Below, one piece after another: positions 47,240 through 51,469 of a stretch of DNA of 64,000 nt (within the stretch, counting starts at the first letter, position 1; the number at the start of each line of letters is the position of its first letter). A program made the position numbers and the translations under genes. The stretch lies in assembly GCF_000011085.1 (NCBI RefSeq), contig NC_006396.1:1798001-1862000 (forward strand), in the 5' to 3' direction. Origin of the DNA: Haloarcula marismortui ATCC 43049 (lineage in GTDB: Archaea; Halobacteriota; Halobacteria; Halobacteriales; Haloarculaceae). The notes under the pieces are model-generated. The model ran no database searches. It was given only the letters and a program-made list of their open reading frames with translations, and had not been told where the DNA came from.

Positions 47240-47512
47240 ATGCAAATCGAGCTGCGGTTTTTTGCCAACTTCCGGGAAGCCGTCGGACAGAAAACGGTTC
47301 ACCGCGAGTATGAAACGGACCTGCAGGCGGGCGATGTGCTCCGACAGCTCTCCGAGGAGTTCACAGAGATGGACCTATTTGAGGACGGCGAACTGCGAGA
47401 GTATCTGACAATCCTCCGGAACGGAAGAGACATTGCCCATCTCGATGGTCTAGAGACCCCACTGGAAGACGGAGACGAACTTAGCGTGTTCCCGCCAGTT
47501 GCCGGGGGGTAA
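47240..47512 (+). CDS. samp1: MoaD/SAMP1-like beta-grasp protein ending Gly-Gly
   Basis: A 90-residue ubiquitin-like protein ending VAGG. The C-terminal Gly-Gly is activated by an E1-like enzyme to carry sulfur for molybdopterin synthesis or to modify proteins. The body (RFFANFREAVGQKTV, LRNGRDIAHLDGLETPLEDGDELSVFPPVAGG) matches Haloferax SAMP1 as I recall it. A TATA-like GATTTAAGCC at 47209-47218 lies 22-31 bases before the ATG, supporting a leaderless start. It lies 26 bases from the convergent Cys-Cys-ending relative and near the AOR gene, so it may serve pterin-cofactor synthesis as well as protein modification. Confidence 0.85.
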   Translation: MQIELRFFANFREAVGQKTVHREYETDLQAGDVLRQLSEEFTEMDLFEDGELREYLTILRNGRDIAHLDGLETPLEDGDELSVFPPVAGG

Positions 47513-47537
47513 TTCCTGCGACAGTCAGTTGCCCGAG

Positions 47538-47939
47538 TCAGCAACAGAAGATGAACGGGTATAGCAACCCGATGCGGTCGCCGGTTTCCAGTTCCGTGTC
47601 CAGTCCGTCGAGATGTTCGTTGAACTCACCGTTGACCGCCACTCGCGCGTAGCATCTGGTCTGTTCGCCTTCGGGGTTTTTCGCCCAGTCGCCCGGCAGG
47701 TCCGCTATCTCCGGGGCCCAGCCCTCGGTGGTGGCGTCGGCTTCGGTTTCCGCGATGAGCATATCGCCCACGTCGTACTCCTGAAAGAACGCGTCGAGGA
47801 AGTCACGTAGCGTGTTCCCTTCGAACGTGTATGACAGCGCCGGTTCGCCGACGACCCGGCGAACGTGGCCGGTGCACCTGACCTCGACAGTAGTCAGGTC
47901 CATTGCCGACGACTGTCGCTCTACTGTCTCACTGCTCAT
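47538..47939 (-). CDS. Divergent MoaD-like beta-grasp protein ending Cys-Cys
   Basis: A 133-residue protein with the beta-grasp pattern of MoaD/ThiS proteins (VEVRCTGHVRRVVGEPALSYTF, VAVNGEFNEHLDGLDTELETGDRIGLLYPF), but the C-terminus is FIFCC instead of the Gly-Gly needed for E1 activation. About 40 acidic residues are inserted in the middle. The terminal Cys pair could carry a persulfide or bind a metal, but that is inference. The ATG at 47939 is used; an ATG at 47903 would drop 12 residues. It lies beside samp1 and about 3.5 kb from aor. Confidence 0.7.
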   Translation of the reverse strand: MSSETVERQSSAMDLTTVEVRCTGHVRRVVGEPALSYTFEGNTLRDFLDAFFQEYDVGDMLIAETEADATTEGWAPEIADLPGDWAKNPEGEQTRCYARVAVNGEFNEHLDGLDTELETGDRIGLLYPFIFCC

Positions 47940-48030
47940 GTGTACGCTACACCCCGCCGATAGAAGTCAGTAGAGACGAACATGTTCGCCCATCGCTGGG
48001 GTTTATTTGCGGCGAACTCTGTGTGGCGAT

Positions 48031-48399
48031 ATGGACAATATCGAACTGGGGATTCCGGCCGGAATTGTCGACTCGCTGCCGCCGGACAGCGAGGACACGA
48101 AACGCGACATGGAACAGGCCGTTGGTGGCTGGGAGCGGGAGCTCAACGCCGCGCTCAATACCGAAGAGCCGGCCAGCGCCGTCGTCGACCACATCGAGCA
48201 GTTCGAGAGCCGGTGGGAGGCCTACGACGAGTACGTCGTCGAACTTCGGGCCTGGGGTCAGTCACCCATCTACGCGATGGCCTGGCGCGACCTGCACGCC
48301 GCCGTCATTGCCCAGATTTACGACCACGCCGATCTGGATGAGCGCATCAACCGCGAGCGCAACGCCCGCATCGTCGACGACGGTATCCGGCCGGGGTAG
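48031..48399 (+). CDS. Conserved haloarchaeal protein
   Basis: A 122-residue acidic soluble protein, mostly helical (EDTKRDMEQAVGGWERELNAALNT, AVVDHIEQFESRWEAYDEYVVELRAW), with a C-terminal HAAVIAQIYDHADLDERINRERN. No motif of known function is visible. The ATG at 48031 gives MDNIELGIPAGIVDS. It is the first of three same-strand small genes (48031, 48504, 48769). Function unknown. Confidence 0.6.
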   Translation: MDNIELGIPAGIVDSLPPDSEDTKRDMEQAVGGWERELNAALNTEEPASAVVDHIEQFESRWEAYDEYVVELRAWGQSPIYAMAWRDLHAAVIAQIYDHADLDERINRERNARIVDDGIRPG

Positions 48400-48503
48400 A
48401 CCCTCTCTGTCCGGCAGAGTGACACCTCGGGATAGCGCGGGTGTGGCAAACGAGCGCCGGACCGCCGATAAGTTTAGACGACCGCACCCGTAACGACCAC
48501 ACG

Positions 48504-48758
48504 ATGGAGCGTGAACGGAGTTTTCGCGGCATCTCGGTTCGAGCCGCTATCGGGTATCTAGAGAACCTCGGCGGCGAGCAACGCGGCGAAGCGACCGTCG
48601 AAGGCGACGGCTGGGCGGCGACACTCTCAGAGGAGAAAGTCGCTATCGGCCCCAGCCTCCAACTCAACGAGGTAACAATCCAGTTCGACGGTGACCCGGA
48701 GACACTGGAGCCGCTTATCGAGAAGTTCGCACAGAAAGCAATGCGGGCGGGCGGCTGA
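48504..48758 (+). CDS. Conserved small protein
   Basis: An 84-residue protein that alternates strands and helices (GISVRAAIGYLENLGG, ATVEGDGWAATLSEEKVAIGPSLQLNEVTIQFDGD, LEPLIEKFAQKAMRAGG). The pattern loosely recalls the C-terminal domain found fused to some MoaD-like proteins, which would fit the nearby MoaD and AOR genes, but this link is weak. The ATG at 48504 was chosen for its acidic and basic MERERSFRGIS start. It precedes the next gene by 10 bases. Confidence 0.6.
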   Translation: MERERSFRGISVRAAIGYLENLGGEQRGEATVEGDGWAATLSEEKVAIGPSLQLNEVTIQFDGDPETLEPLIEKFAQKAMRAGG

Positions 48759-48768
48759 CCGGGGCGCG

Positions 48769-49137
48769 ATGGCCGACCCGTCGTACCCAATCGAGGGGCA
48801 GATCGTCTTGCTGGCCGGCACGCAGGCCAGCGTCCCGCTCGACCGCCTCCCCGACCTGCTCGAACAGGTGCAAACGTATCTCCGGGCAAACCGGGAAACC
48901 TACGACAGAGAGTACGAACGCATCAGCGGCCCCAGAGAGGCCGATTACGTCTGCGCTGAGTCGGACCACTGGGACAGTATCGGCACAGAACTTGGACTGA
49001 GCAACCGCGAGCAGGACGCCGTTCAGCGGGCCCACGCCGCCCAGTTCGAGCGCGACGGGCGGCGGCTGGACAGAAGCGAGGAGTTCGAGACGACGCTGGA
49101 AATCAGGGCCGTACTGGCAGTCAGCTCTGAACCGTAA
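48769..49137 (+). CDS. Conserved haloarchaeal protein
   Basis: A 122-residue acidic protein with a helix-rich middle (LPDLLEQVQTYLRANRETYDREYERI), a region with READYVCAESDHWDSIGTELGLSNREQDAVQRAH, and a beta-rich end (TTLEIRAVLAVSSEP). The SNREQDAVQRAHAAQF segment could form a helix-turn-helix-like structure, but no family was recognised. Its stop overlaps the 3' end of the convergent gene at 49121 by 17 bases. Confidence 0.6.
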   Translation: MADPSYPIEGQIVLLAGTQASVPLDRLPDLLEQVQTYLRANRETYDREYERISGPREADYVCAESDHWDSIGTELGLSNREQDAVQRAHAAQFERDGRRLDRSEEFETTLEIRAVLAVSSEP

Positions 49138-49486
49138 TCGTCTCCAGCACGCGCTGGGAGAACGCCGTTTCGGAGAGGTCGCCGTTTTCGAGGTCGTCGA
49201 TCCACTCGCTGTCGACTGACCATTCGCCAAGTTCGGTGTCCTCAAGATCCGTCACGGTCGCCTCGATGTCGACGCCGGACCAGTCATCAGCGTGGAGGTC
49301 CCGAAAGACGTTGATGACGCGGCCGATTTCCCGGTGGGGAATGACGGCCGCCTCGTCGGCCGAAATTGATTCATATGTGAGCCGGTACGTCTCGCCCTCG
49401 TCGGTGAAGTCGGTGACGTAAACGCCGTGGCTGGTCAGTCGGGACTCTACTTGAAATTCGAAGTCGTCGATATCTTCCTTGCGCAT
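49121..49486 (-). CDS. Conserved haloarchaeal protein
   Basis: A 121-residue acidic soluble protein with an N-terminal beta-hairpin-rich region (FEFQVESRLTSHGVYVTDFTDEGETYRLTYESI) and helical middle (PHREIGRVINVFRDLH). It resembles no named family I know. The ATG at 49486 is the first in frame. It lies 36 bases downstream of the aor gene on the same strand, so it may be part of the same transcript. Confidence 0.6.
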   Translation of the reverse strand: MRKEDIDDFEFQVESRLTSHGVYVTDFTDEGETYRLTYESISADEAAVIPHREIGRVINVFRDLHADDWSGVDIEATVTDLEDTELGEWSVDSEWIDDLENGDLSETAFSQRVLETITVQS

Positions 49487-49522
49487 TAGAGAAGTGAAAT
49501 GTGTTCGACGGCCGGCGCTATC

Positions 49523-51469
49523 TCAGTCGTCGCTCGGTGCCGCTGCGCCGCCGGAGCTGACGCCGGTTCCGGGGCCGATATCGATTCCCAGTTCGTCGAG
49601 TTTCTCGTCGGGAACGACGCCGTTCTCCCAGCCACGGACCTCGTAGTACTCGTCTTTCATCTTCGAGAGTTCCGCGAGTTCGCCCTCGGAACCGCCTTGG
49701 GCTGGCATCGCGTGCTCGTCGCCCTCCACGAACCGGTTTGGCAGGTCGTCGTCGGACCCGTCGAAGCCCGCGAGGTTGTTGTAGTACCGTTCGAGGTTGT
49801 AGACGCGCTCGCCGGCCTCCATCAGTTCCTCCTCGCTCACGTCCAGCCCAGTCATGCCGTTGTACTGCAGGACGTACTCCTCGATACCTTCCGCGAAGGC
49901 GTTGAACTTGCAGATGTCGAAGGAGTCACTGATAGCGTGCAGGTCCTGGAAGGTAGCACACAGCTCGCCTTTGCCCTCCCACTCTCGCGGGTCAACCTTC
50001 TCCGGGATACCGAGAATTTCGGCTGCTGGGGTGTAGCCGCGCAGGTGACACGCCCCACGGTTTGAGGTCGCGTACCCGATTGCCATCCCCTTCATACAGC
50101 GCGGGTCGTAGGCGGCCATCGTCTGGCCTTTGACCGCGAGAGAGTTGGTGTGAGCGTCGAACTCCTCGGCGAGATGGTCCGGCCCCTCGGCGAGGTGGTC
50201 CGCGAGTTCCGTCTCGCGGTGGGCGATCATCTCGATCATGTCGATCATCGTCTCGGCGTCGCCCCAGTCCAGACCGTCGTCGAGTTCGTCGAGTTTGCCC
50301 TCCTCGGTCATCTCCATCGTCATCGCCATGGTGTTACCAACATCGATGGTGTCGACGCCGAGGTCGTTACACCGGTCGAGCATCACTGCAATCTTGTCGC
50401 GTTCGACGTGGCCGGAGTTCGGGCCGAGCGCCCACGCGGACTCGTACTCGTAGGATTCGGTGCGGACGTTCATCTCCTCGCCCTTGTGCATCGCCTGCAC
50501 CTCGACTTCCTTCTTGCAGGCGACCGGACAGGAGTGACAGGTCGGCTCGTCAACAAGGATGTTCTCCCGGACGTTTTCGCCCGAGACGTTCTCTGAGTCG
50601 ATGATACGCTCGCCGTCGCCCTCGGCGTCCGAGTACGCTCGCGTCGACGAGTACTTCCCGTTTTTCGTCGGGAGACCGTCCATCTCCTCGGTGGGATTCA
50701 TCAGGACGTTGGTCCCGTACATCGAGAGTCCGCCTTCATTGGGCGCGGTCACGTCGGATTCCTGGATGACCTGCATCGCCTGCTTGTGGCCCTCCTGGAA
50801 CGTCTCTTGGTCTTTTGGCTTCGGCATCCGAGTGCTGGACTTGACGACGACGGCTTTGAGGTTCTTGTTGCCCATCACGCAGCCGGTGCCACCGCGACCC
50901 GACGCGCGGTCGTCCTCGTTGACGATACAGGCGTATTTGACCTCGTTCTCACCGCCCTGGCCGATGGCCATTACGGAAAGGTTCTTGCCCAGCGAGCCGC
51001 CCTCGATTTCGCCTTCGAGGTCGTCGATAGTGTCGTGGACGCCCTGCCCCCAGAGGTGTGAGGCGTCGCGCAGTTCCACTTCGCCGTCTTCGACGAGCGC
51101 ATACACCGGCTCGTCAGCCTGCCCTTCGAACAGCAGTCCGTCGAAGCCCGACCACTTCAGTCGCGCCCCGGACCAGCCGCCGTGGTGGGAATCAGTGACG
51201 GTCCCCGTCAGCGGCGACTTCGTACAGATGGCGATACGACCGCTCATCGTCACCTGTGTCCCCGTCAGCGGCCCGTTCATGAACGCCAGCAGGTTCTCCG
51301 GCCCAAGCGGGTCAACGTCCGGCCCCTGGTCGAAGACATACTTCACGCCGAGTCCGCGTGCACCGATATACTTTTTCGCGTCTTCCTCGTCAATACCTTC
51401 GTAGGCTACGTCCCCGTCTCCGAGGTCGATCCGTGCCACGTGGTCCTGAAAGCCACCAAGGTCTGTCAT
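49523..51469 (-). CDS. aor: Tungsten-type aldehyde ferredoxin oxidoreductase
   Basis: A 648-residue enzyme that oxidises aldehydes to acids with ferredoxin, using a bis-pterin tungsten (or molybdenum) cofactor and a 4Fe-4S cluster. The N-terminal pterin-binding region is visible (YIGARGLGVKYVFDQGPDVDPLGPEN, GLLFEGQADEPVY), cluster ligands are CHSCPVAC and the Cys of DICKFNAF, and the linking domains are complete. It ends with a Gly/Ala-rich acidic tail. The ATG at 51469 is used; a ten-codon in-frame extension upstream is basic and overlaps the promoter. Nearby MoaD-like genes fit pterin supply. The aldehyde substrate is unknown. Confidence 0.92.
   Translation of the reverse strand: MTDLGGFQDHVARIDLGDGDVAYEGIDEEDAKKYIGARGLGVKYVFDQGPDVDPLGPENLLAFMNGPLTGTQVTMSGRIAICTKSPLTGTVTDSHHGGWSGARLKWSGFDGLLFEGQADEPVYALVEDGEVELRDASHLWGQGVHDTIDDLEGEIEGGSLGKNLSVMAIGQGGENEVKYACIVNEDDRASGRGGTGCVMGNKNLKAVVVKSSTRMPKPKDQETFQEGHKQAMQVIQESDVTAPNEGGLSMYGTNVLMNPTEEMDGLPTKNGKYSSTRAYSDAEGDGERIIDSENVSGENVRENILVDEPTCHSCPVACKKEVEVQAMHKGEEMNVRTESYEYESAWALGPNSGHVERDKIAVMLDRCNDLGVDTIDVGNTMAMTMEMTEEGKLDELDDGLDWGDAETMIDMIEMIAHRETELADHLAEGPDHLAEEFDAHTNSLAVKGQTMAAYDPRCMKGMAIGYATSNRGACHLRGYTPAAEILGIPEKVDPREWEGKGELCATFQDLHAISDSFDICKFNAFAEGIEEYVLQYNGMTGLDVSEEELMEAGERVYNLERYYNNLAGFDGSDDDLPNRFVEGDEHAMPAQGGSEGELAELSKMKDEYYEVRGWENGVVPDEKLDELGIDIGPGTGVSSGGAAAPSDD

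Follow-up and report, generated by a model that had tools for sequence, protein, structure and literature searches.

The hallmark of ubiquitin-like sulfur carriers is a functional Gly-Gly end, and a member that conserves a cysteine instead would represent a different way of carrying cargo on the same fold. The closest described relatives come from Makarova & Koonin (2010), whose sections used here list a family of halobacterial beta-grasp proteins that end in Cys-Cys (arCOG00539), a Gly-Gly family of TBP-like proteins associated with two small proteins and one MoaD-like protein (arCOG06308/06307/06309/00536), and an association of most archaeal MoaD-subfamily genes with cofactor genes and aldehyde ferredoxin oxidoreductase (AOR) (PMC2948915). 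Presumed maturation factors are also described, in the sections cited, for other enzymes of this kind: WorX, a ThiS-like protein encoded near some Class I tungsten oxidoreductases (PMC13328260), and AorD/AorE, encoded beside the AOR of Aromatoleum aromaticum (PMC6365974). Here we analyse a stretch of 64,000 nucleotides from Haloarcula marismortui ATCC 43049 (NC_006396.1, positions 1,798,001 to 1,862,000; the whole stretch is called the window), in which a minus-strand gene at 47538–47939 encodes a 133-residue beta-grasp protein of the MoaD/SAMP type, here called CC, with a CTGH motif after strand 1 and the C terminus PFIFCC.

The Cys-Cys end of a haloarchaeal MoaD-type family is thus already known from 2010, and what is new is the dependence of CC on a set of AOR genes, the constancy of Cys132 and CTGH, the two genomic contexts of the gene, its denitrification operator and the match of a neighbouring protein, TBPGG, to the Thermus structure 1v8c. 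Sections 3.1–3.2 and Table 1 of the 2010 account give no AOR dependence, Cys132/CTGH invariance, operator or mechanism for arCOG00539; likeness between the arCOG families and the genes here was matched by description, not by arCOG membership. The PMC literature yielded no published function for the CC family, although it has been on record since 2010, and no paper stating the role of haloarchaeal AOR. We propose that CC is a SAMP/MoaD-derived accessory factor of one AOR system, expressed with denitrification, whose Cys tail would carry sulfur or metal, a reading to which we assign a probability of roughly 45%.

The dependence on AOR emerged from a survey of 194 haloarchaeal genomes of the order, each at least 90% complete. 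CC was found in 114 (two copies partial and one with an in-frame stop), TBPGG in 141, AOR of this type in 141 (70–100% identity, E ≤ 1e-200) and the neighbouring SAMP in 149 at a loose cut. The AOR genomes and the TBPGG genomes are the same 141, and we refer to AOR, a SAMP3-like protein, TBPGG, the small protein A122 and usually a second one, C122, as the AOR set. All 114 CC genomes carry both AOR and TBPGG, and none of the 53 AOR-less genomes carries CC (Fisher 9e-28, a p value that is only a guide since the surveyed genomes are related). Genus is known for 185 of the 194 genomes, and within the seven genera that vary in AOR, no genome has CC without AOR. AOR itself showed no co-occurrence with the denitrification-linked markers used as controls (NirK, p = 0.20; CGCGG, 0.41; TIGR04053, 0.31). 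A first-pass annotation of this DNA had proposed a functional link between CC and aor that would fall if orthologues occurred without it; as no such orthologue was found, the link stands and is well supported. Across a phylum-wide sample, CC matched in 20 of 186 genomes, all 20 from the order of Haloarcula marismortui. Like WorX and AorD/AorE, CC is MoaD/ThiS-like and linked to AOR. It differs in its Cys end, which the sections cited do not report for those proteins, in its frequent location at a distance from aor and in its denitrification operator.

Linkage in genome content does not extend to a fixed place beside aor. Among 80 named loci, the best 80 of 134 relatives, TBPGG lies inside the examined stretch in 17, and the neighbours in the remaining 63 include TIGR04053 radical SAM proteins, the candidate ribosomally synthesized and post-translationally modified peptides (RiPPs) CGCGG and Htur_1727, membrane proteins and NirK. 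CC lies within 20 kb of TBPGG in 32 of the 114 genomes and of AOR in 31, and within 25 kb of TIGR04053, CGCGG or NirK in at least 37, none of them shared with the TBPGG-near copies; this last count may be too low, because CGCGG and NirK positions were entered only for copies picked by eye near CC. About a quarter of CC copies thus adjoin AOR and about a third adjoin denitrification-linked markers. Adjacency to AOR was accordingly rejected as a rule for CC, most copies sitting elsewhere. The suggestion of a pterin and sulfur supply unit beside aor keeps its AOR link and loses its adjacency; with most copies elsewhere and a denitrification operator in the promoter, it is too narrow. Four of ten plasmid CC loci were examined: nirK lies within 7 kb in three, CGCGG, halocyanin and nrfD genes are present in the fourth, and the product names used at these loci read either 'pterin cluster protein' or else 'MoaD/ThiS family protein'. 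Neighbouring genes were taken from a codon-scored gene caller, which mis-set some starts (locus L038) and called no genes in locus L154; no confident family was assigned to the neighbour clusters c4 and c8 (both membrane proteins) and c6. The TIGR04053 count of 66 of 194 genomes, at a cut of 1e-110, is a lower bound, since this cut missed the copy in the window's own genome. As a separate observation, the CGCGG candidate RiPP occurs in 92 of the 99 NirK genomes of the survey (odds ratio 31), which points to a denitrification role for the CGCGG family.

Within the AOR genomes, the presence of CC follows denitrification markers. CC occurs in 71 of 76 genomes with NirK versus 43 of 65 without, in 86 of 90 with CGCGG versus 28 of 51 without, and in 89 of 95 with either marker versus 25 of 46 with neither; shuffling CC inside genera gave p ~1e-4 for either marker. 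Among AOR-less genomes, none of the 32 with NirK or CGCGG carries CC.

The CC promoter carries the operator of the haloarchaeal denitrification regulon (CGAAYATDKTYG). The palindrome CGAACATGTTCG lies at 47977–47988, in the 91-bp gap upstream of CC, with 37 bp separating it from the start codon of CC and 42 bp from that of A122. No second exact copy exists in the window, where the relaxed pattern CGAAYNNRTTCG was counted three times versus 0.44 expected. In Haloferax mediterranei, according to the sections of the study used here, the nor and nos promoters hold exactly CGAACATGTTCG and nirK holds CGAATATGTTCG; reporter mutations significantly lowered the activity of nor and nos, did not significantly lower that of nirK and left the nar promoter unaffected (PMC10062603). 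Among the 80 named loci, the 200 bp upstream of CC contain the relaxed pattern in 69 and the strict form in 56; a spacing of 37 or 38 nt between the end of the strict operator and the start codon is seen in 40 of these 56. The strict operator is also present in 12 of the 17 AOR-cluster loci. As a control, among the other genes of the CC loci, excluding any that share its promoter, the relaxed pattern precedes 56 of 1335. A second control used 20 chosen AOR loci, distant from CC or taken from CC-less genomes, of which 19 yielded genes; here the pattern precedes none of the 85 AOR-set genes and one of 255 genes overall. The prediction from this operator that CC is under denitrification control is well supported.

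The same pattern recurs throughout the window's own genome, at 56 sites versus one for the reversed control. Six chosen stretches were examined, among them that of nirK. In these, sites precede an operon leading to a NarG-type gene (L174), a cupredoxin–nosZ pair (L176), and two DUF2249 genes and an HTH_10 regulator near CGCGG and TIGR04053 (L175, L179); a further site lies beside a 690-residue gene (L177). Sites were also seen to cluster at L179:2281-5410 and L175:2375-3645, around the CGCGG candidate RiPP, TIGR04053, DUF2249 and a c8-like membrane protein, and these genes may belong to the denitrification regulon. Searched by term, the main texts of the two H. mediterranei studies (PMC10062603, PMC11218638) yielded no MoaD, pterin, aldehyde or ubiquitin.

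We examined the CC protein itself for what it shares with Gly-Gly carriers. Its product ends YPFIFCC, and residues 97–128 match Pfam ThiS at 24.4 bits (cut-off 22.5), placing it in the ThiS/MoaD family; two NCBIfam models scored below their cut-offs (moaD_arch, 26.9 versus 49.5; SAMP1, 24 versus 60), and the C-terminal Gly-Gly of the MoaD/ThiS/SAMP family is absent. An AlphaFold2 model built on a 21-sequence alignment had a mean predicted local distance difference test score (pLDDT) of 70.3, with residues 130–133 below 50. Among the Foldseek matches listed for this model, 2l52 came first (E 1.7e-6), followed by 2m19, the HVO 2177 protein (3.5e-6). Among those listed by VIA-align, the mycobacterial molybdopterin synthase chain 6jbz_B gave Z 11.3 (root-mean-square deviation (rmsd) 1.7, 77 residues), tied with 1v8c_A (Z 11.3) and SAMP1 4hro_B (11.2). 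SAMP3 (HVO_2177, 2m19), SAMP1 (4hro, 3po0) and E. coli MoaD (1fm0_D) share the fold at Z 9 to 11 with the tail in the same position; these proteins have a Gly-Gly tail activated by E1, as known from the literature, where CC has a Cys tail, and CC is longer by about 30 residues in the stretch from the first helix to strand 3. The structural alignments end at residue 128, so that the FIFCC tail leaves the last strand where the Gly-Gly tail of MoaD and SAMPs does. As modelled, CC adopts a MoaD fold followed by a short tail at the C terminus, in agreement with the first-pass description of a MoaD/SAMP beta-grasp protein ending FIFCC.

The tail is conserved, though not quite in the form first supposed. 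The Cys-Cys end occurs in 72 of the 80 named orthologues; with the family in 114 of 194 genomes, it is not a chance feature. An alignment of 101 distinct sequences, drawn from the 80 named loci and 30 further loci, has Cys22 in 99, Thr23 and Gly24 in 101 each, His25 in 99, Cys132 in 99 and Cys133 in 90, the last position being otherwise Val (5), Leu (3), Phe (1) or a gap (2). The two sequences without Cys132 (L030, L107) are interrupted by a stop beyond which the frame reads PFVFCV or PFFFCC, whereas Cys132 is present in all 99 uninterrupted sequences, with Cys, Val, Leu or Phe after it. The expected conservation therefore holds for a Cys end and fails for the pair: constant are the penultimate Cys and the CTGH after strand 1. 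In-frame stops in three CC copies (L030, L107 and G168:C1:1614285-1614659) mark possible pseudogenes or sequencing errors. Tandem CC paralogues of Natronorubrum (L069:10493-10894, L108:10470-10865) read CTGR and lack both His25 and the tail Cys, ending YPFLFAPRS or YPFLFAP. A joint loss of His25 and the Cys tail was suspected; this idea was weakened by the stops in L030 and L107 and by L082, which keeps its FCC end.

AOR-set dependence together with the denitrification operator places CC between the two systems, and CC probably helps AOR when oxygen runs out. When a cell turns on denitrification, CC would be expressed through the operator before its start codon. Its tail would dock at the place where MoaD tails dock, and Cys132, with Cys133 where present and perhaps Cys22 and His25, would deliver sulfur, as persulfide, or a metal to the pterin cofactor or to the enzymes that assemble it. 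AOR could in this way be kept supplied or repaired as molybdate uptake rises and nitric oxide (NO) appears. Unlike Gly-Gly tails, such a carrier would need no thiocarboxylate made by E1. With the Gly-Gly gone, thiocarboxylate chemistry is unlikely, and the invariant Cys at the same tail end suggests carriage of persulfide or metal; any choice among sulfur supply, molybdenum/tungsten sorting and repair under NO would be inferential. The more specific version, in which an E1-independent, Cys-ended sulfur or metal carrier acts for a tungsten-pterin enzyme and answers to the denitrification regulator, so that tungsten-cofactor supply is adjusted at nitrate respiration, is tentative and somewhat unlikely as a whole. 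The findings nevertheless tie tungsten enzymes to denitrification in haloarchaea, and the strict AOR-set link, the operator and Cys132/CTGH make CC directly testable in these organisms.

Several observations weigh against the proposal of an AOR accessory factor expressed with denitrification. CC is missing from 27 of the 141 AOR genomes and is thus not needed for AOR as such, and both NirK and CGCGG are absent from 25 CC genomes. Eleven of the 80 named loci lack the relaxed operator in the 200 bp upstream, at least one of them (L038) owing to a predicted start set too far upstream. No CGAAYNNRTTCG site was found in the 7 kb surrounding nirK of the window's own genome (L178:2327-3379), which argues against a simple all-denitrification regulon, and in H. 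mediterranei the operator also occurs in other promoters, 83 regions that include transporters and regulators, in the sections of PMC10062603 used here. A site formed by Cys22, His25 and Cys132 is not proven, since L082 has both Cys22 and His25 replaced with its FCC end kept and L077 carries Ala22. The CC model is only of moderate quality (pLDDT 70; tail below 50), and persulfide or metal carriage is purely inferred chemistry.

Other functions would account for part of this evidence. Denitrification raises molybdate uptake for nitrate reductase, and CC might then bind or hand over tungsten or shield the AOR cofactor. Such sorting would explain why CC tracks both the AOR system and denitrification markers, and it agrees with the modA and mobA operon being up under denitrification in H. 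mediterranei (PMC11218638, in the sections used here). It also fits the NarG distribution: wherever an AOR genome has a NarG-type enzyme that exceeds the cut-off, CC is present (29 of 29), versus 85 of the 112 others; those same 85 of 114 CC genomes without a NarG-type match over the cut-off count against it and led us to reject NarG as sole co-determinant of CC. We know of no tungsten site built from Cys in a flexible tail, and on balance consider this function unlikely. The upstream operator would also suit a defence against NO or redox stress, in which the Cys tail detects nitrosative damage at AOR (Fe-S cluster, tungsten dithiolene), removes it, or acts as a thiol switch on SAMP3 or TBPGG. 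CC neighbours include nirK, cbb3-type or nor-like oxidase genes and DUF2249, and the last two positions are both Cys in 90 of 101 sequences; the vicinal pair is nonetheless dispensable, with Leu, Val or Phe last in 9 of 101, and we doubt this explanation too.

Proximity to denitrification genes in many genomes, with their operator, could mean that the main role of CC is in denitrification itself, such as the maturation of a copper or heme enzyme, the AOR link being indirect. Since CC is absent from every one of the 32 AOR-less genomes with NirK or CGCGG, we regard this as improbable. A MoaD-like fold whose Gly-Gly end is replaced by Cys could also make CC a decoy or antagonist of SAMP3, its non-activatable tail binding the same partners (MoaE, E1, AOR) and turning the unit down; an antagonist would not obviously need the Cys132 found in 99 of 99 uninterrupted sequences, which leaves this very improbable.

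The genes around CC include the members of the AOR set, two of which encode Gly-Gly proteins. The plus-strand gene at 47240–47512 encodes a 90-residue SAMP/MoaD protein ending FPPVAGG and converges on CC with 25 bp between them. The first-pass annotation had this convergence right and called the product SAMP1-like. It does exceed the NCBIfam SAMP1 cut-off (95.7 bits versus 60) and has the Gly-Gly end, yet pairwise it is nearer to 2m19, the H. volcanii HVO 2177 protein (E 3e-28, versus 5e-10 for SAMP1), its nearest solved relative. HVO_2177 is SAMP3 in the section of PMC4500146 cited, and the SAMP1 identity was dropped for a SAMP3-like one. Elsewhere, some predicted SAMPs extend a few residues beyond the Gly-Gly, which may mean processing.

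On the other side of CC, aor (49523–51469, minus strand) lies as close as first described, at 1.6 kb: 1583 bp separate the CC start from its 3′ end. Its 648-residue product, of the aldehyde ferredoxin oxidoreductase family, has AFOR_N and AFOR_C domains, the CxxCxxxC motif CHSCPVAC (C311-x2-C314-x3-C318) and a later Cys520, and is a predicted tungsten AOR; we take these cysteines to be Fe-S ligands. Four small genes lie between CC and aor, where three had been counted: A122 (48031–48399, plus strand), a 122-residue protein of no known family present in 140 of 194 genomes; TBPGG (48504–48758, plus strand), an 84-residue TBP-like protein ending QKAMRAGG, a second Gly-Gly end (MRAGG) that had been missed when only the neighbouring SAMP was noted as such; C122 (48769–49137, plus strand), 122 residues of no known family and usually after TBPGG; and D121 (49121–49486, minus strand), 121 residues, in only 12 of the 80 named loci. 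The D121 and C122 genes overlap tail to tail.

TBPGG has the fold of residues 87–165, the C-terminal domain, of the MoaD-related Thermus thermophilus protein 1v8c. Its model (pLDDT 92) matches that segment at Z 12.4 (rmsd 1.5, 79 residues), the next Z among the matches listed being 8.5, and 1v8c also heads the Foldseek matches listed (E 1.6e-5). By sequence alone the relation is weak: the Pfam scan gave no DUF1952 match for the window's TBPGG, one homologue scored 14.7 bits against a gathering cut-off of 22, and 1v8c was not listed in a TBPGG profile search of PDB sequences. The RAGG end is present in all 26 aligned TBPGG sequences. In 1v8c the two domains form one protein, whereas haloarchaeal SAMP and TBPGG are separate genes in the other AOR loci examined. 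In two loci they are fused (L137:9942-10487, minus strand, 181 residues; L138:4231-4773, plus strand, 180 residues), so that FPPVAGG lies inside the protein and RAGG at its end. Both fusions resemble 1v8c, and that of L138 aligns with it over its length. The fold match and these fusions indicate that the AOR set includes what looks like a split counterpart of the two-domain Thermus protein.

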